60,019 nt of DNA. Origin: Nitrososphaeraceae archaeon. Lineage in GTDB: Archaea > Thermoproteota > Nitrososphaeria > Nitrososphaerales > Nitrososphaeraceae. Location of the stretch: the NCBI GenBank assembly GCA_013114725.1, contig QCWD01000002.1, positions 1-60,019 of the forward strand, written 5' to 3'. Position numbers and translations under genes: made by a program. Shown here one piece after another: positions 1,706-9,564 of the stretch. The notes below the pieces were generated by a model. The model made no database searches. It was not told the DNA's origin and was given only the letters and a program-made list of their open reading frames with translations. The stretch's first letter is position 1. Each line of letters opens with the position of its first letter.

Positions 1706-3106
1706 ATTAGAAAATATAGAAAAACTGCATTCATATTTAGAAGAGATTTAAGATTAGATGATAATACGGGATTAATAGAAGCAATTAAAAATTCTGAATT
1801 AATAATATGTTGTTTTATACTTGACCCATGGATATTGAACAATCCTTCCTTTCATAGACCAAATATGTTTCAGTTTTTCAGAGAATCTTTACTAGACCTA
1901 GAAAGAAAAATTTCTTCACTAAATGGAAAACTATTTTATTTTTATGATAGCAATAATAAGGTAATCGATTCTCTTGTAGAGTTTGAAAAAATTGAAGCAA
2001 TATATTGTAACAGAGACTACACAAAATATAGCATTAATCGTGACATTGAAATACTAGAATCATGTAAAAAAAACAATACAGATTTCTATCAATACAACGA
2101 TCTACTACTAACCGAACCAGAAAAGATCAAAAATAAATATGGACAGCCTTATACAATTTTTTCTTATTTTTATCGATCTGCACTAAAAATCCCTGTAAAT
2201 CGTCCACAAATACTTGTAACAAATCAAAAGCATTTTCGTTTGGAATCATCGATAAAAAAGGATTATGATGTTCCTTCAATCGATTTCTTTGGGTCTTTTA
2301 ATCCGTCAATAGACCAGCATGGAGGACGGGCAGTATGTGAAAAGATTTTAGCAGGGATAGAGAAATTCAAAAATTATAAAGAAAATAGAGATTTTCCGTA
2401 TCTTGATTCTACAACGAAACTATCGCCACATATAAAATTTGGAAACTGTTCTATTAGAGAAATCTATTATAAAATTTTAGACCATTTTGGAAATAGTCAT
2501 CCATTAATTCGTCAGCTATATTGGAGAGATTTTTTTACCCATATTGGCTACCATTTCCCCCATGTGTTTAAAAAACCATTTAAAGTGAAATTCCAAAAGG
2601 TAAAATGGATTTATAATAAAAATAAATTCCTGTCCTGGTGTAATGGTATGACAGGATTTCCTATTGTAGATGCAGGAATGCGTCAATTAAATTCTACTGG
2701 CAACATGCACAACAGGGTAAGAATGATTACCGCTTCATTTTTGGTTAAAGACCTCCGCATAAATTGGATGCAAGGTGAACGATATTTTGCATCAAAATTG
2801 ATAGATTATGATCCTTGTGTGAATAATGGTAACTGGCAGTGGGTCTCTTCCACTGGTTGTGATTCTCAGCCGTATTTTCGAATTTTTAATCCTTGGCTAC
2901 AACAGAAAAAATTTGATCCAGATTGTATGTACATAAAAAAATGGATACCAGAACTACGAAATATTTCAAATGAAGTAATTCATAATTGGAATGAAAAACA
3001 GATTAATTTATATCATAATATAAATTATCCAAAACCCATGCTAGAGCATGATTTTGAAAGTAAGGTAACAAAGGAAATTTTTTCAGCTACTACCAGATAT
3101 ACTTAG
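1706..3106 (+). CDS. phr: Deoxyribodipyrimidine photolyase (class I photolyase/cryptochrome family)
   Basis: A light-driven, FAD-dependent repair enzyme that splits cyclobutane pyrimidine dimers. The N-terminal antenna domain begins KTAFIFRRDLRLDDNTGLIE and includes FILDPWILNNPSF. The FAD domain shows TTKLSPHIKFGNCSIREIYY, IRQLYWRDFF, GFPIVDAGMRQL, MHNRVRMITASFLVKD, DYDPCVNNGNWQW and YFRIFNPW, all hallmarks of the family. The first ordinary start codon is TTG at 1835, which would cut off about 43 essential residues. The frame is open from 1703 with no ATG, GTG or TTG before 1835, so either ATT at 1706 is the start or the start codon has been lost. The full-length product would be about 466 aa, normal for the family. 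Confidence 0.85.
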   Translation: MRKYRKTAFIFRRDLRLDDNTGLIEAIKNSELIICCFILDPWILNNPSFHRPNMFQFFRESLLDLERKISSLNGKLFYFYDSNNKVIDSLVEFEKIEAIYCNRDYTKYSINRDIEILESCKKNNTDFYQYNDLLLTEPEKIKNKYGQPYTIFSYFYRSALKIPVNRPQILVTNQKHFRLESSIKKDYDVPSIDFFGSFNPSIDQHGGRAVCEKILAGIEKFKNYKENRDFPYLDSTTKLSPHIKFGNCSIREIYYKILDHFGNSHPLIRQLYWRDFFTHIGYHFPHVFKKPFKVKFQKVKWIYNKNKFLSWCNGMTGFPIVDAGMRQLNSTGNMHNRVRMITASFLVKDLRINWMQGERYFASKLIDYDPCVNNGNWQWVSSTGCDSQPYFRIFNPWLQQKKFDPDCMYIKKWIPELRNISNEVIHNWNEKQINLYHNINYPKPMLEHDFESKVTKEIFSATTRYT

Positions 3107-3380: not shown

Positions 3381-3418
3381 GTTAGCACTAACTGCATATA
3401 TTAGCACTAGTTTAAATA
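3381..3418 (+). promoter_or_regulatory. Tandem TTAGCAC operator plus TATA box of the B12-binding gene
   Basis: TTAGCACTA occurs at 3382-3390 and again at 3401-3409 (19-nt step). The second copy directly abuts a TATA-like TTTAAATA at 3411-3418. The same layout stands before two other genes in the next 4 kb. The start codon lies about 98 nt downstream, which leaves an untranslated leader of roughly 70 nt. The rest of the 409-nt gap (3107-3515) shows nothing else clear. Confidence 0.7.
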
Positions 3419-3515
3419 CTATTGTCAAGTAAAATATAATGATAATAATGGAAGTTTTTCAGAATCAAGATAAGATTTTAGTGTACAATATTAAAAACTA
3501 CGGAGGTATTGAGAT

Positions 3516-4379
3516 TTGGTATTTATAAGAACAAAGAACATAAAAGGACATCAATACGCATACCTTGTAAAAAATATATGGAATGAAGATTCTAAAAAGG
3601 TTCAGCAAGTTACGATCAAATATTTGGGAAATGTTTCAAAATTAAAAATTGAACATATTCCAAAAGAATATGAAAGTAATCCCTATGTAAAAGAATTTTT
3701 AGATACATATTATAATAAAGGTAAAGAAGATGGAAAATTTGACGATAGTATTAAAGAAAAGGTCTTTAAATATCTGAGTGTTCATGATATAGAGTCGTTA
3801 ATTGAAATTTATGAAGACTATGTAAAGTATCATCAGCTTGATACATTTTATGACAAAATAATGATTCCGATATTACATGAGATCGGTGACCTTTGGCAAT
3901 CAGGTAAATTAGATGTGGTTACAGAACATATATGCAGTAATGCGGTACTGTCTTTAATAAAAATAATAAACGAAAAGACATTAAAGCTTAGAAAAACCCA
4001 TCTTGCTAAAAAAGTTCTAATTTGTACTCCTCAGGGAGAATTACATATTATAGGATGCTCAATGATCGAATCACTTTTGTTAAAAAAAGGATATATAGTA
4101 TACAACGCCTCTCCCTCTGCACCGTCAGATTCAATAATCTCATATCTGCGATCAAAAGATATTGATCTTTTGATTATTTCATTCACATTAATGGAACATA
4201 AGAGGATGGTGAAAAAAATGGTTAAAGAAATCAGAGATGGAATAAAAATACCAATCATCATTGGAGGACGTGGAGTCTCTTCTTTGGCAAATGATAGTGA
4301 ATTATCAGGTATTTCAGATATCCACCCATTAGAAAAACCAGTAGGGGAGATTGTGCAAATAGTAAATAAAATAATTTAG
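3516..4379 (+). CDS. CarH-like cobalamin-binding sensor with a non-MerR N-terminus
   Basis: Residues about 80-280 match the B12-binding module of CarH/MerR-type photoreceptors: a four-helix cap with the Wx9EH signature (W127, E137, H138) and a Rossmann B12 domain with ExHxxG (E175, H177, G180; H177 would be the lower cobalt ligand), a Ser/Pro loop (NASPSAPS) and IIGGRG (from 248). There is no MerR helix-turn-helix. The first 45 residues (IRTKNIKGHQYAYLVKN...VTIKYLG) instead resemble the N-terminal beta domain seen on some archaeal transposase-like proteins and might bind DNA (inference). The residue after W127 is Gln, where Thermus CarH has the His that ligates cobalt after light. The TTG start is chosen because GGAGGT at 3502-3507 sits 8 nt upstream. 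It stands next to the photolyase and behind a tandem operator. Confidence 0.75.
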   Translation: MVFIRTKNIKGHQYAYLVKNIWNEDSKKVQQVTIKYLGNVSKLKIEHIPKEYESNPYVKEFLDTYYNKGKEDGKFDDSIKEKVFKYLSVHDIESLIEIYEDYVKYHQLDTFYDKIMIPILHEIGDLWQSGKLDVVTEHICSNAVLSLIKIINEKTLKLRKTHLAKKVLICTPQGELHIIGCSMIESLLLKKGYIVYNASPSAPSDSIISYLRSKDIDLLIISFTLMEHKRMVKKMVKEIRDGIKIPIIIGGRGVSSLANDSELSGISDIHPLEKPVGEIVQIVNKII

Positions 4380-4698
4380 ATTTAGAGGTATAGACGAAGA
4401 GATCATGTACAACACTACAGTATAGGATTAATTACCATATGAACATTATATACGATATATCTGAAAATCAGTATGTTATTTTACTGAATAAAAGATGCAT
4501 CATTTGCTGTAAATCTTCTATGTATAACGTATTCAGATTGATTTTTTTATCTCATTTTTTCATTTTCAGAATATGATTTTTCAACTCAATCTAGAATAAT
4601 AATATGAATTTATCTTACAAAATTCAGATGAATTTTATATATTTGATAGATAATAAATATATTTTTCATTTATATTCATCATTTGTTTTTTAAAATAT
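4380..4698. other. Intergenic stretch, no gene recognised
   Basis: This AT-rich 319-nt gap holds a possible 45-codon reading frame from 4439 with no recognisable features, and the 16-mer ATTTATCTTACAAAAT at 4608-4623, which also occurs at 424-439. No TTAGCAC motif is present here. Confidence 0.3.
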
Positions 4699-5325
4699 GT
4701 GTTAAAAATTGAACCAGTAACTTTGGAAGGAAAATACGTTATTCTACGACCTCCCTCGCTTGATGATGTAGAGGGTCTGACTAAAGCAGCAAGAGATGGT
4801 GAAATTTGGAACAATCCTTATGCATTTTTTCCTCATCCAGACGAAATGTGTATGTATATACAAGAAATGTTAGATTTGAGTTCGGATGGTTCAATATTAC
4901 CATTTATTACTATATCTAAAAAAACCAATACGATAGTTGGTACAACTCGGTATCTAAATATTGATCGTGAAAATAATCGTCTTCAAATAGGTCACACCTG
5001 GATTGCTAAATCTTGGCGTAAAACATCAATTAATACAGAGGCAAAATTTTTGATGTTGCAACATGCTTTCGAGAAACTAGGTTGTATTGCAGTAGAAATA
5101 CGAACTGATGTTTTAAATACAATTTCACGACAAGCTATAGAAAGACTAGGAGCAAAACAAGATGGAATATTACGTTACCACAAGATAATGAAACATGGCA
5201 GAATAAGAGATACTGTATGTTATAGTATAATAGAACCAGAATGGACTGCAACAGTTAAAGAGAGATTAAAACAAAAATTAAAAGAAGATAATAGTAATTA
5301 CAATAAGTTTCAATCATTGTTTTGA
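4699..5325 (+). CDS. GNAT-family N-acetyltransferase, RimJ/RimL type
   Basis: The 208-residue product follows the RimJ/RimL fold. The N-terminal strand is VTLEGKYVILRPPSLDDVEG, the central strand is IVGTTRYLNIDRENNRLQIG, and the C-terminal half has AFEKLGCIAVEIRTDVLN and SRQAIERLGAKQDGILRYH, the usual end of the acetyl-CoA binding core. Family members acetylate ribosomal protein N-termini or small substrates, but the substrate cannot be read from sequence. The GTG at 4699 fits the family's normal N-terminus. It is monocistronic and converges on the next gene across a structured inverted-repeat region. Confidence 0.85.
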   Translation: MLKIEPVTLEGKYVILRPPSLDDVEGLTKAARDGEIWNNPYAFFPHPDEMCMYIQEMLDLSSDGSILPFITISKKTNTIVGTTRYLNIDRENNRLQIGHTWIAKSWRKTSINTEAKFLMLQHAFEKLGCIAVEIRTDVLNTISRQAIERLGAKQDGILRYHKIMKHGRIRDTVCYSIIEPEWTATVKERLKQKLKEDNSNYNKFQSLF

Positions 5326-5342
5326 TGGATTTCAATTTTTGA

Positions 5343-5408
5343 CATGGTAAAGGATCTAGAATTCATTACGAATGAATTTATAAAATACCATGTTAGGGCT
5401 TTACCATG
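5343..5408. repeat. Nested inverted repeat between convergent genes
   Basis: CATGGTAAAG (5343-5352) is perfectly complemented by CTTTACCATG (5399-5408). Inside lies a second hairpin, ATTCATT-acg-AATGAAT. A third small stem (TCTCCA...TGGAGA) follows near 5441-5460. It could act as a bidirectional terminator or be a small mobile-element relic. Confidence 0.45.
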
Positions 5409-5521
5409 GTTGGTGGCAAATGGTAAAATGTAGATTAAAGTCTCCACAGTAATTGGAGAGAATAAAATCCCTCTTGAAAAATAATTGATTCAGTAAGGAC
5501 TTTTTCATCCAAAAATAGTTA

Positions 5522-5845
5522 TCATGAATGTTGATATTCTATACTCATAGATGTGGGAAGGTCATCAAAGAGAATGGTTGTTAGAAAATCATCATATATC
5601 TCTATCCAGTCATATCCTATTTCTGCTTTACAGTATAATTTTATCTCTTTTCCATTTTTTGTATAAAAATACAAAGTGACGTATTCGGATAGACATAATT
5701 CTTTTGGGAGTTTAATTCCCAAACTCCCTCCTTGGATATTGATCTTGTAAATAGAGTTCAATCCAATGGCATTTCCTTCTATATAGCTCTCACCATATGT
5801 CATCTCTAGATTAAATAAAATGGAGCTGACTTTTGATGTACTCAT
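5522..5845 (-). CDS. Unknown 107-aa protein under the TTAGCAC operator
   Basis: A small soluble protein, apparently all beta: alternating short hydrophobic strands such as SIYKINIQGGSLGIKLP, VTLYFYTKNGKEIKLYC and AEIGYDWIEIYDDFL, two cysteines, no membrane segment. I do not recognise the family. Its promoter (5867-5904) has the same paired TTAGCAC sites as the CarH-like gene about 2.4 kb away, so it is probably controlled by the same factor. The ATG at 5845 is 21 nt downstream of the TATA box at 5867-5876, so the transcript would be leaderless or nearly so. Confidence 0.6.
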   Translation of the reverse strand: MSTSKVSSILFNLEMTYGESYIEGNAIGLNSIYKINIQGGSLGIKLPKELCLSEYVTLYFYTKNGKEIKLYCKAEIGYDWIEIYDDFLTTILFDDLPTSMSIEYQHS

Positions 5846-5866
5846 AAGGATTTATTGGTATCATTT

Positions 5867-5904
5867 TATTTAAATATAGTGCTAATATAGTTTATGGTGC
5901 TAAC
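5867..5904 (-). promoter_or_regulatory. Tandem TTAGCAC operator plus TATA box of the 107-aa gene
   Basis: Read on the minus strand, GTTAGCACC (5896-5904) is followed 18 nt later by TTAGCACTA (5877-5885) and then immediately by TATTTAAATA (5876-5867), an archaeal TATA box. The arrangement matches the sites at 3381-3418 and 7054-7090. Confidence 0.7.
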
Positions 5905-5978
5905 TGATCTTTTTATGATTCGTAAAGAACAAAGTAACCCGAGAAAGATATGATAAAGTTTAGTCGGACAAATTGAAA

Positions 5979-6779
5979 TTACTGATATATTCGTTCTTTA
6001 CCTACAGGTACATTATTGATATTGTTTGTGTGGATATTTTTTTCCAAGATATCGGCTTCCTTTAAAAGATTATTTGTATCACAATACAGGTTTGGAACTA
6101 TTTGGGATATTATTTCTGAAACCTTTGCGGCAGCTCTGAAATTGGGAATACCTGAAATGACGTCTACAGCAAAGACGATTACATCTATTTTTGCCAGCAT
6201 ACCCTCATTTAACAGAATTCCAGGTATTCCGCGTATGCTGCCTTCTATAATGGGTATAACTCCGGTGTCTTTTAACTTTAAAAATCCACCTTTGGAATTA
6301 ACTGCAGCATAAATTTTTGTTGGTAACACGGCAGCTGCTTGTAGATTGCCTGATGATAATGCCTGTTGTTTGGTATTTCCTATGACACTGATTATAGTCT
6401 TGCATTTATTCAATTTTGCCCATTGTATCATTTTTTTAGCTATTGGCTTGTGGAATCTGGTATCAAACACGAGTTCAGATGTAAAAAATGCCAATTTGTG
6501 TTCTTCATTTCCATATATTCGGATTGGAAAATTTGCAGTAGAATTATAGATTATAGAAATTGGTGGCAGAGATGGTGAATCTAAAACACCAATCAGTTCT
6601 GTTTTTATAGAATTAATGAAGCAACTGCATGCAATCGTCCCTGTTAATCCATAACTTTGAAATCCATCAAAAAGAACTCCACCTTCCAAGTTACAATTTT
6701 TTACTTTTCTCAGTTCTATTTTTGGTTCCACAAAATTAGACCAATTGTTTTCTCTTTCAGATATCTCGTATTGTTCCAT
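5979..6779 (-). CDS. PAC2 (proteasome assembly chaperone 2) family protein
   Basis: 266 aa. The N-terminal part has the PAC2 opening (GGVLFDGFQSYGLTGTIACS, then LIGVLDSPSLPPISIIYN), followed by FHKPIAKKMIQWAKLNKCKT and the core IISVIGNTKQQ. Near the C-terminus come GVIPIIEGSIRGIPGILLNE, typical of archaeal PAC2/COG1938-like proteins. Eukaryotic members help assemble 20S proteasomes; the archaeal role is not settled. The ATG at 6779 lies 8 nt after the stop of the upstream small membrane protein, so the two form an operon driven by the TTAGCAC promoter at 7054-7090. Confidence 0.8.
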   Translation of the reverse strand: MEQYEISERENNWSNFVEPKIELRKVKNCNLEGGVLFDGFQSYGLTGTIACSCFINSIKTELIGVLDSPSLPPISIIYNSTANFPIRIYGNEEHKLAFFTSELVFDTRFHKPIAKKMIQWAKLNKCKTIISVIGNTKQQALSSGNLQAAAVLPTKIYAAVNSKGGFLKLKDTGVIPIIEGSIRGIPGILLNEGMLAKIDVIVFAVDVISGIPNFRAAAKVSEIISQIVPNLYCDTNNLLKEADILEKNIHTNNINNVPVGKERIYQ

Positions 6780-6787
6780 CTTTTATG

Positions 6788-7030
6788 TCACCTCAAACTC
6801 TCCACAAGACCTCTATCTATGGTTTTCATCTTTTTATCGTTAAAATATCTGTACAGAAAAAATAATGATATAATAATAGGTCCTAAAATTATACTTGCTT
6901 TTCCTGTCATGCTATTAATATTTAAAAATCCAGATAGCATTAAAATTACTGATGAATAAAGTACAATATTGGGTATCAGAATTCTTTTTATTGTTCTGTA
7001 TTTTTTGTTTGTTTTGGAATATAATTTCAT
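6788..7030 (-). CDS. Small two-span membrane protein, first gene of the PAC2 operon
   Basis: 80 aa. It has a basic N-terminus (KLYSKTNKKYRTIKR), membrane segments at about residues 18-37 and 43-62, and a short basic C-terminal tail. No family is recognised. It is co-directional with the PAC2 gene and separated from it by 8 nt. Its promoter holds the paired TTAGCAC sites. Confidence 0.6.
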   Translation of the reverse strand: MKLYSKTNKKYRTIKRILIPNIVLYSSVILMLSGFLNINSMTGKASIILGPIIISLFFLYRYFNDKKMKTIDRGLVESLR

Positions 7031-7053
7031 ATTATTTATATCTCATTTTTAGT

Positions 7054-7090
7054 ATATAAACTAGTGCTAATTTTGTATCTTAGTGCTAAC
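7054..7090 (-). promoter_or_regulatory. Tandem TTAGCAC operator plus TATA box of the PAC2 operon
   Basis: On the minus strand, GTTAGCACTA (7090-7081) is followed 19 nt later by TTAGCACTA (7070-7062), then by TTTATATA (about 7060-7053), the TATA box. The architecture is the same as at 3381-3418 and 5867-5904. Confidence 0.7.
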
Positions 7091-7125: not shown

Positions 7126-7156
7126 GTTAGTCACCTAAAATAAAACGTTAGTCACC
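7126..7156 (+). promoter_or_regulatory. Direct repeat GTTAGTCACC x2 before the 136-aa gene
   Basis: GTTAGTCACC occurs at 7126-7135 and 7147-7156 (21-nt step), followed at once by AT-rich ATAAATTTTAAT (7157-7168). It looks like a one-base-longer variant of the GTTAGCACC box, in the same intergenic region as the TTAGCAC pair but reading toward the plus-strand gene. It may be an operator for a related factor. Confidence 0.5.
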
Positions 7157-7206: not shown

Positions 7207-7617
7207 ATGAAAAAAAATAACGGAAGTACATCGATGGTAATTATTTCCGGCTCCTGTATTAACTTTGATAAAGAGAGAAACAAAATTGTTCGGGTTATAG
7301 AAGAGTTGCAGATGGATTTACATATAAAAACAGAGTATGAAGTATATTCAAACGGAAGTGCACTTGGTTGGGATTTTTTTTTAATTCATTTAAATCCATC
7401 ACTTTTAGAAGAGGCATCTTTTATAATTCCAAAAATCAATAAACAAGAAGGAGACAATCTGGAACAAAAATTTGTAATTTGGCTTTCAAAAGTGTTTAAA
7501 GAAAAAAAAGATAATTATTTTTTAAAAATAGTAGATAAACCATATGAAACTGTAAGTGGTTTTAGATTGGACCCCAATAACTATCGTAATGATAATATGC
7601 TTAAAGACCTGAGATAA
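7207..7617 (+). CDS. Unknown 136-aa soluble protein
   Basis: A mixed alpha/beta protein with no membrane segment and no motif I can assign. The first strand, SMVIISGSCINFDKERNKIV, has a nucleotide-binding look but no complete P-loop. A charged region LEQKFVIWLSKVFKEKKD precedes the C-terminus. It is followed by the membrane protein at 7678, and its promoter has the GTTAGTCACC repeats. It may be co-transcribed with the next genes (60-nt gap). Confidence 0.55.
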   Translation: MKKNNGSTSMVIISGSCINFDKERNKIVRVIEELQMDLHIKTEYEVYSNGSALGWDFFLIHLNPSLLEEASFIIPKINKQEGDNLEQKFVIWLSKVFKEKKDNYFLKIVDKPYETVSGFRLDPNNYRNDNMLKDLR

Positions 7618-7677
7618 TTTTATTTATTTTTTGAAATTGATTGGTTGATAGAATATAGAATAAAGCTGTGTTGGAAA

Positions 7678-8178
7678 ATGTTTGATATTTACTCTATTTT
7701 ACAATTATTTTTGCTTGGCATTACTAGCGGTGCTGTTTCGACTACCGTGATGTCGATATTTGAGATAATACCATGGAAGCGGTGGGGAATTGAGGGAGTG
7801 TATGAATGGCATGAAAATCAGATACTTGTTAAAAAATATTTCAAAGATATCTTTTCCAGAGAAGATACATTAAATTTCAAGGGAATATTTTTGCTACATT
7901 ATATAAACGGAATACTAGGATCTATAACTTATGTTTTTTTGATTTGGTATCTTATTGAAGGAGGAATGATTGGAGATAGTTTTTCTAATTTGTTTATGGC
8001 AGGAATTGTGTATGCTATCTTTTTATGGGCGGTAACTTTATTTCCGATTCACAAACCGATAACTGGACGAGACCCTTTAAAGCATCCATTAGGATACGGC
8101 CCTCTTTTTTATAGTCTTACAGGTCATTTCATTTACGCTATAGTGCTTAGTATATGGGTATGGGTATTTATTTTGTAG
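7678..8178 (+). CDS. Four-span membrane protein of unknown function
   Basis: 166 aa from the ATG at 7678 (a TTG at 7645 would add 11 polar residues and is less convincing). Membrane segments are at about residues 4-24, 68-88, 98-120 and 142-164, with a cytoplasmic loop containing WHENQILVKKYFKDIF and a conserved-looking HKPITGRDPLKHPLGYG loop before the last segment. No family is recognised. The stop lies 15 nt before the SDR-like gene, so the two are probably translated from one transcript. Confidence 0.6.
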   Translation: MFDIYSILQLFLLGITSGAVSTTVMSIFEIIPWKRWGIEGVYEWHENQILVKKYFKDIFSREDTLNFKGIFLLHYINGILGSITYVFLIWYLIEGGMIGDSFSNLFMAGIVYAIFLWAVTLFPIHKPITGRDPLKHPLGYGPLFYSLTGHFIYAIVLSIWVWVFIL

Positions 8179-8193
8179 GAAGGAATAGGATGT

Positions 8194-9564
8194 ATGAAGA
8201 TGAAAGAAGATAGTGATAAATTGAGGATATTGGTTACCGGGGCAACCGGTTTTATTGGAAGTAGATTAGTAAAAAGATTACTTGCTTCCCACGATTACAA
8301 AGTAGTATGCATGTCCAGAAATCCATCGGAAGTTGATGAACTGTTCCAAACTACGGGCGAGATTTTAGAAGTTGTTAAAGCCAATGCTTTGAATTATTCT
8401 GAGCTTGTGCAGGCACTTAAAGGAGTGGATATTGCATATTATCTAATTCATTCTATGGAAGGCTCCTCTAAGGATTGGAAAAAATTTGCGGAACGTGACA
8501 GAATTGCAGCAGAAAATTTTGCCAAGGCAGCATCAGAGAATCATGTTAAAAGAATAATCTATTTGAGTGGACTGACTTTTCCAAAGGAAGAAAATTTGTC
8601 TGAACATATGAGAAGCAGAAGAGAGGTCGGAGAGATTTTGAAAAAATCAACTGCAAAAGTTACAATCTTTAGAGCTGCTGTGATATTAGGACAGGGAGGA
8701 GGTTCTTTTCAGATGCTACAACATCTGGTCGAGAGACTTCCAGTGATGATATGTCCAAAATGGATTTCCACCAAATCACAACCCATATATGTTGATGATG
8801 TGGTTACATATTTGATAAAGGCCGTAGAGGTTCCAGAAACTATAGGCAGGGAATTTGATATTGGAGGTCCGGAGATATTAAGCTATTATGAGATGATGAA
8901 AAGATATGCAAAAATACTGAACAAATCTTTGAAAATTGTAATTATACCAGTTTTGACTCCGAGACTATCGTCGTATTGGATTGACCTGATAACTCCGATA
9001 AAGGCGTCCCTTGCAAGGCCGTTGATTGACAGTTTAAAACATGAAGCGGTGGTATACGATAATTCAATTCAAAAGATAGTTCCAATAGAATTGAAGGGAT
9101 TTGAAGATTCTATTAGTTCTGCAATTAAGGAAGGAAAAAGGATTAAAAAAGTTATCAAAAAACAAAAGACTTCAGAATCGATAAACAAGAAAATTCTGAT
9201 AATTTCGTTGATAGCATTAGCTGTTGTAGGTGCAACCTACTACTTTATTGATGATCGTAATGATGTCTACGAGCCCATTTGGCTTGTATTATCAGGACTG
9301 TGGTATTTTGGAATAGCGGTTTCGTTATTTTTTGTTAAAAATGGTGCAAGGCTTGGTTCTATGATAGCAGGCATACTGGGATGGATGACACTTGCTTTTT
9401 GGCTTGTTGATAATATCTATTTGATCGATAAAGATTCAGCAATTGTTTCAGAAGCACCAAATATAGTGATGACGATAAGAAATTTTGTTGGAGCGGTGGT
9501 AGCATCACTGGTAATTGCGTCATCTCACAATCTGTTTCACAAAATAAGATTGTTGTCTATATGA
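8194..9564 (+). CDS. NAD(P)-binding atypical SDR fused to a four-span membrane domain
   Basis: Residues about 10-300 form an extended/atypical SDR of the NDUFA9/NmrA-like type: nucleotide motif VTGATGFIGSRLVKRLL, VDIAYYLIHSMEG, RIIYLSGLTFP, VTIFRAAVILGQGG and the late PIYVDDVVTYLIKAVE. Residues about 328-456 add four hydrophobic segments (for example ILIISLIALAVVGATYYF). The classic YxxxK pair is not evident, so it may bind a dinucleotide for a non-dehydrogenase role such as quinone or lipid chemistry at the membrane (inference). The Shine-Dalgarno-like GGAAGGAATAGG precedes the ATG at 8194. Confidence 0.75.
   Translation: MKMKEDSDKLRILVTGATGFIGSRLVKRLLASHDYKVVCMSRNPSEVDELFQTTGEILEVVKANALNYSELVQALKGVDIAYYLIHSMEGSSKDWKKFAERDRIAAENFAKAASENHVKRIIYLSGLTFPKEENLSEHMRSRREVGEILKKSTAKVTIFRAAVILGQGGGSFQMLQHLVERLPVMICPKWISTKSQPIYVDDVVTYLIKAVEVPETIGREFDIGGPEILSYYEMMKRYAKILNKSLKIVIIPVLTPRLSSYWIDLITPIKASLARPLIDSLKHEAVVYDNSIQKIVPIELKGFEDSISSAIKEGKRIKKVIKKQKTSESINKKILIISLIALAVVGATYYFIDDRNDVYEPIWLVLSGLWYFGIAVSLFFVKNGARLGSMIAGILGWMTLAFWLVDNIYLIDKDSAIVSEAPNIVMTIRNFVGAVVASLVIASSHNLFHKIRLLSI

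Follow-up and report, generated by a model that had tools for sequence, protein, structure and literature searches.

We examined a 60,019-nucleotide stretch of DNA from a soil archaeon of the Nitrososphaeraceae (contig QCWD01000002.1, positions 1 to 60,019; hereafter, the window), in which the gene for a B12-binding protein and two nearby transcription units share a paired DNA element abutting their TATA boxes. The initial annotation had reported pairs of TTAGCAC at 3382/3401 on the plus strand and at 5897/5879 and 7083/7064 on the minus strand, spaced by 19, 18, and 19 nucleotides, with the gene-proximal copy ending one or two bases before a TATA box. A recount confirmed these positions and spacings, and the gaps between proximal copy and box are 1, 2, and 1 bases, respectively. 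The operator unit is the 9-mer TTAGCACTA, present as a direct repeat 18 to 20 bp apart that touches the TATA box; the distal copy at 5895-5903 reads TTAGCACCA instead. The sites, with their scores in the site model described below, and the genes behind them are as follows.

3382..3409, + strand: operator 1, TTAGCACTA-N10-TTAGCACTA, 19-bp spacing, upstream of the B12 regulator gene (40.5 bits)
3411..3418, + strand: TATA box TTTAAATA, one base past operator 1
3516..4379, + strand: gene for the B12-binding protein, the presumed regulator, 287 amino acids (aa), identified by Pfam B12-binding and B12-binding_2, an AlphaFold2 model, and motifs
5877..5903, - strand: operator 2, TTAGCACCA...TTAGCACTA, 18-bp spacing, upstream of the 107-aa gene (29.9 bits)
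5867..5874, - strand: TATA box TTTAAATA, two bases past operator 2
5522..5845, - strand: 107-aa protein, function unassigned, no Pfam family; its homologs in the family carry the site and precede an NmrA-type reductase gene (loci L065, L066, and L142)
7062..7089, - strand: operator 3, TTAGCACTA-N10-TTAGCACTA, 19-bp spacing, upstream of the small membrane protein and PAC2 genes (39.4 bits)
7053..7060, - strand: TATA box TTTATATA, one base past operator 3
6788..7030, - strand: 80-aa hydrophobic, probable two-helix membrane protein, a conserved regulon member; its ATG lies 22 nucleotides past the site end
5979..6779, - strand: PAC2-family protein (proteasome assembly chaperone type; PF09754, TIGR00161 below cutoff), downstream of the small membrane protein

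The statement that the window holds no other copy of the motif stood as far as pairs are concerned, but a lone unpaired TTAGCAC at 103 (+), within an open reading frame (ORF), had been missed. Single 7-mers occur at chance level (7 seen versus 4.5 expected), so the significance sits in the pairing. Indeed, the pattern TTAGCACN{9,14}TTAGCAC has exactly three matches in the 1,908,834-base genome, all within this 3.7 kb, whereas about 0.03 pairs would be expected genome-wide (our estimate from the 7-mer rate) and the reversed pattern gave none. In a sequence-only site model of 43 positions, spanning repeat, spacer, repeat, and TATA box, the next match in the window after the three operators scored 7.2 bits. 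Across the whole genome, the best match beyond the three was partial (E = 0.046), and the model found no comparable fourth site.

The initial annotation had named two genomic observations that would speak against its regulon, a random spread of the motif and its absence from orthologous promoters, and neither was borne out. The paired site also stands in orthologous promoters of Nitrososphaeraceae, Nitrosopumilaceae, Nitrosotenuis, and Nitrosocaldus. Among 70 genomes of the Nitrososphaeraceae, the family of the window, those with exact pairs have them mostly 30 to 110 bp before the ortholog of the B12 gene. Around the B12 orthologs of this sample, which belong to several genera, we found 28 pairs with at most two mismatches in total; their spacings are 18, 19, and 20 only, most immediately precede a TATA box, and the reversed motif gave none. 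In one relative (locus L044), the distal half-site of the B12 promoter reads TTAGTCACTA. Exact-pattern matches in five genomes (G025, G028, G037, G039, and G040) were set aside, as the site model with its TATA box finds nothing strong there; the strong site of G025 lies elsewhere than its exact-pattern match. A pair of TTAGTCAC, considered as a second family-wide motif, was rejected because it occurs in the window's own genome only.

We then applied a matrix trained on the window's family alone to 57 B12 genes of other ammonia-oxidizing archaea (AOA). A pair preceded 55 of the 57, with a spacing of 19 in 53 and of 18 in 2, and the scores had a median of 24.8 bits upstream of B12 genes versus 0.8 for other nearby ORFs. 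By this conservation, both the element and its association with the B12 gene go far back in AOA. In these promoters, the proximal repeat is less conserved than the distal one (10.5 versus 11.9 bits).

The presence of the site follows that of the B12 protein. A strong site was found in 26 of the 31 family genomes that carry the regulator and in 2 of the 39 that do not (Fisher P = 4.5e-12, ignoring shared ancestry). In the two regulator-less site bearers, the contig ends within the operon, ahead of where the B12 gene would be expected, and the P value is 3.9e-14 when they are excluded. The pattern repeats within genera: in one (g7), the regulator occurs in 1 of 18 genomes, and that one alone bears the site, while in another (g5) the site is present in 8 of 10 genomes with the regulator versus 0 of 5 without. 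Furthermore, eight regulator-less genomes keep the reductase described below, and none of them has a strong site anywhere, which is how the loss of operators after the loss of their regulator is expected to look. The system thus behaves as an autoregulated transcription factor with a defined regulon, the same operator standing at its own gene and at unlinked targets and being lost with the regulator. From these patterns we strongly infer that the B12 protein is the regulator acting on the paired sites, and the autoregulation put forward in the initial annotation gains strong support.

It is quite improbable that the repeat is bound by another factor, such as a dedicated TFB, with the B12 gene as just one target among others. 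A TFB gene does lie near the B12 gene in 38 of 57 marine-type loci but in just 4 of 23 soil-type loci. Such a factor would also have to accommodate the tracking of sites, unlinked ones included, by the regulator across the 70 genomes, the reductase that persists siteless without it, and the repeat preceding 55 of the 57 B12 genes.

The element defines a regulon, not a single promoter. Within the family, it stands before the B12 gene or its operon (membrane protein, reductase, B12 protein, membrane protein), before homologs of the 107-aa protein with the reductase next in line, and before genes for hydrophobic proteins of 62 to 80 aa, which include the 80-aa protein of the window. This small membrane protein family is confined to regulator-bearing genomes (15 of 15, P = 4e-7). 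A site lies upstream of 20 of the 22 matches to its profile, 16 of these at 21 to 23 nucleotides before the match start, and such sites are often unlinked to the regulator gene, which then lies on a different contig or at a great distance. The fixed distance of about 22 nucleotides between site and ATG suggests that transcription starts at or near the ATG. In Nitrosopumilaceae, further targets are a flavin adenine dinucleotide (FAD) desaturase-like oxidase, secreted WVKNNAGWW proteins, and the divergent reductase or the small membrane protein. Secreted-looking proteins with WVKNNAGWWADG repeats, which match no Pfam family, bear the operator in many Nitrosopumilaceae (L178, L195, L187, L193, and others). 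No B12 synthesis or uptake genes were among the targets found.

Eight AOA genomes outside the family gave 3 to 11 matches each, many of the best lying near the B12 gene. In a Nitrosopumilus chromosome, the reductase carries a site about 340 kb from the regulator gene. When 400 kb were sampled along this chromosome, TATA-adjacent sites occurred only at the B12 cluster and the reductase locus, which together account for 7 matches, and 18 regions of 20 kb had none. That the pairs always abut a TATA box would suit a general AOA promoter element, such as an extended B recognition element (BRE); nevertheless, three sites in 1.9 Mb, empty reversed-pattern controls, and the siteless Nitrosopumilus regions make this explanation, like chance repeats, extremely improbable, and we rejected both on the whole-genome counts and controls.

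The remaining features of the locus lie on either side of the three sites.

1835..3106, + strand: DNA photolyase, resembling the 8-hydroxy-5-deazaflavin (8-HDF) type (PF03441/PF00875, TIGR03556), directly upstream of the B12 gene
7126..7156, + strand: candidate diverged fourth operator, GTTAGTCACC twice, 21 bp apart, before the genes for a 136-aa protein, the 177-aa protein, and the reductase (7207-9564)
7645..8178, + strand: 177-aa membrane protein, found beside the B12 gene in other AOA (Nitrosocaldus among them)
8194..9564, + strand: NmrA/epimerase-type SDR reductase with a C-terminal membrane part, site-bearing in other species, unlinked cases included

The pair at 7126-7156 is divergent to operator 3, unique among the 70 genomes, and below the site-model threshold. 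The three sites of the proposed three-promoter regulon stand, and the regulon may include this diverged fourth copy at 7126/7147. The reductase and the 177-aa protein downstream of it are partners of the B12 gene elsewhere. The photolyase was considered as a regulon member in the window and rejected, having no site in front. Its reading frame stays open beyond the TTG at 1835, back to about 1709 (+), and the sequence there is typical of photolyases although it offers no ATG, GTG, or TTG as a start; this extension (1709-1835) points to an unusual start codon or an assembly slip. A 29-aa leader ORF, MIIMEVFQNQDKILVYNIKNYGGIEIWYL, at 3439-3528 (+), begins about 20 nucleotides past operator 1 and runs into the start of the B12 gene. 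That gene has a GGAGGT of its own and the longest site-to-start distance among those inspected. In Nitrosopumilus, the flanks of the B12 gene (L195 6844-10113, L178 5319-8678) hold the FAD desaturase-like oxidase, small uncharacterized proteins, a TFB paralog, and DUF1722. These surroundings raise the possibility of a light-controlled role in lipid or pigment metabolism.

The regulator consists of an N-terminal three-stranded sheet and helix (residues ∼1 to 70), a helical bundle, and a Rossmann B12 domain, the latter two covering residues ∼80 to 287 and bearing the Pfam B12-binding and B12-binding_2 matches. Two motifs tell CarH proteins, Wx9EH and the cobalamin motif D/ExHx2G/P-x41-SxT/V-x22-27-GG (PMC9304148). 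The window protein has the first at 127-138 and the second exactly at 175-251 (E175xH177xxG180-x41-S222xT224-x25-GG251). All 79 orthologs carry Wx9EH; 61 of them match the cobalamin motif when it is read strictly and 76 when it is relaxed. The AlphaFold2 model had a predicted local distance difference test (pLDDT) score of 83, and its best Foldseek matches were photocobilin and CarH (E about 1e-11); for the bundle and B12 domain, matches to 5c8d and others had E about 3e-11 and template modeling (TM) scores, by target length, of 0.56 to 0.83. The NCBIfam model CarH was the best match but below its cutoff, covering residues 78 to 255 only (47.8 bits versus a cutoff of 400). One Nitrosocosmicus-type genome (G008) carries three regulator paralogs (L074, L080, and L081), at least one of which lacks a strong site.

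For the N-terminal ∼70 residues, the prediction gives three strands followed by a helix at a confidence of 88, and invariant residues include K7, Y14, W22, Q31, Y36, and G38. Identification of this part as MerR or another known fold was rejected, with no support in Pfam, PDB, or Foldseek searches. A likeness to the N-termini of IS1634-type transposases was not supported either, as no plasmid match was found and the domain occurs, across the 70 genomes, in the B12 protein and its fragments only. In a sample of the phylum, it was present in the window's own genome, in 19 of 23 genomes from a single other family within the order, and in 0 of 127 genomes outside the order. An alignment-based search recovered orthologs sharing this N-terminus in the named AOA Nitrosocosmicus, Nitrosopolaris, Nitrosopumilus, Nitrosarchaeum, Nitrosotenuis, and Nitrosocaldus, where a single-sequence search had given none. 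By elimination, position, and co-occurrence, the N-terminal part is most likely an AOA-specific DNA-binding domain.

The protein had been called CarH-like in the initial annotation, a description that holds for the helical bundle and the B12 domains but not for the DNA-binding part. CarH and LitR, MerR-family bacterial light-responsive repressors that depend on adenosylcobalamin (AdoCbl), share with the present system the bundle and Rossmann domain with both motifs, a direct-repeat operator in the promoter, apparent autoregulation, and a neighboring photolyase. In contrast, their MerR winged helix is here replaced by the AOA-specific sheet domain, the 11-bp tandem repeats nnnnTnnACAn of CarH by TTAGCACTA repeats 18 to 20 bp apart, and the bacterial setting by an archaeal TATA/BRE promoter; no carotenoid operon was seen, and there is no H132, which in Thermus CarH serves as the second cobalt ligand once illuminated. 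The absence of this His was seen in an alignment to the H132A chain of TtCarH and across all 79 orthologs, whose residue after the Trp of Wx9EH is A, E, Q, K, S, D, or M. Photocobilin (Saccharothrix 8j2w/8j2x; also 8j2y) matches the B12 module best in both sequence and fold and likewise has no His after the Trp, but it has other output domains and by its sequence is no DNA-binding regulator. The CarH-like protein of Chloracidobacterium thermophilum (8jbs/8jbt) shares the B12 module, with dark and light structures, and the non-His residue, whereas its PDB title places it in the MerR family. Archaeal regulators acting at BRE/TATA offer a further likeness, in that the operator abuts the TATA box and is expected to govern the access of TBP and TFB; we know of none with a B12 light-sensing module. 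Because the MerR domain, the CarH type of operator, and H132 were each looked for and not found, we place the system among the B12 photoreceptors as a variant, and not within CarH.

Since the direct repeats are about two helical turns apart, the two TTAGCACTA half-sites would be held by the two subunits of a dimer, or by two dimers of a tetramer, along a single face of the DNA. The BRE position next to the TATA box is taken up by the proximal half-site, and the bound form would therefore control TFB/TBP access, most simply by blocking TFB; the lower conservation of the proximal repeat is expected if TFB must read it as a BRE too. By analogy with CarH, the AdoCbl form would be bound and repressing in the dark. 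Light would break the Co-C bond, the oligomer would open and the protein would be released, whereupon the promoters would fire and more regulator would be made. In the window, this would switch on the regulator gene itself, the 107-aa gene, and the genes for PAC2 and the small membrane protein; in relatives, it would switch on those of the reductase and FAD oxidase.

A regulator that activates is possible, though doubtful. The rigid spacing to TATA box and start would fit direct TFB/TBP contact, and archaeal activators are often positioned directly upstream of the BRE. However, the proximal repeat covers the BRE itself, which favors occlusion, and is the less conserved one, as expected if it doubles as BRE; in addition, known CarH proteins repress (PMC9304148). 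Repression by the bound form in the dark is, by this analogy, the likelier mode, although a little less likely than light being the signal at all.

As for that signal, the same regulator and sites could instead read cobalamin status or the redox state of alkyl-cobalamin, sensing the AdoCbl pool and adjusting a small stress or membrane programme. The B12 motifs indicate a potential to bind, not light sensing; H132 is missing in all orthologs; AOA make cobalamin (PMC8123684); and 14 of 57 marine-type loci have a BtuF-like gene (vitamin B12 binding protein type) close to that of the regulator (e.g., L195 3243-4170). Yet the targets are a reductase, membrane proteins, and the FAD desaturase-like oxidase rather than B12 synthesis or uptake, and Wx9EH, part of the CarH signature, is kept in every ortholog. 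Photocobilin and the Chloracidobacterium protein, also without His after the Trp, have dark- and light-state PDB entries. The neighbors too fit light: the photolyase, the photolyase-associated family DUF1722, and the FAD desaturase-like oxidase. Taken together, this makes cobalamin status an unlikely signal and light, by analogy with these proteins, a probable one.

Several points weigh against an autoregulated photoreceptor acting at these promoters. Besides the ancestry that the Fisher P values ignore, 5 regulator-bearing genomes lack a strong site, and the site model finds no operator before the window photolyase. The N-terminal domain, proposed to bind DNA by its position and co-occurrence, has no Pfam, PDB sequence, or Foldseek match. 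None of the 79 orthologs has H132, and their light chemistry may therefore be different. Moreover, an operator that touches the TATA box would fit an activator as well. With these points counted, we still regard it as probable that the window holds the local copy of an AOA regulon run by an archaeal, autoregulated, B12-based photoreceptor that controls TBP/TFB access. The fuller reading is favored by a small measure: a B12-photoreceptor regulon conserved in AOA, with a CarH-type sensor joined to a DNA-binding domain of no known family, acting at TATA/BRE via the 18- to 20-bp repeat and dedicated to a light response.

AOA are among the most abundant microbes of soil and sea, and nitrification is inhibited by light. 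Our literature search, which covered few subscription journals and preprints, found no work joining AOA with CarH or a B12 photoreceptor and no light-sensing transcription factor described in AOA. With a candidate protein, an operator at base resolution, and targets in many species, including cultured relatives, now named, light sensing in AOA becomes directly testable. If the proposal is true, a CarH-type photoreceptor would be wired into the archaeal TBP/TFB machinery through a DNA-binding domain without known relatives. Altogether, our results suggest that nitrogen-cycling AOA own a previously undescribed light (or B12) switch.

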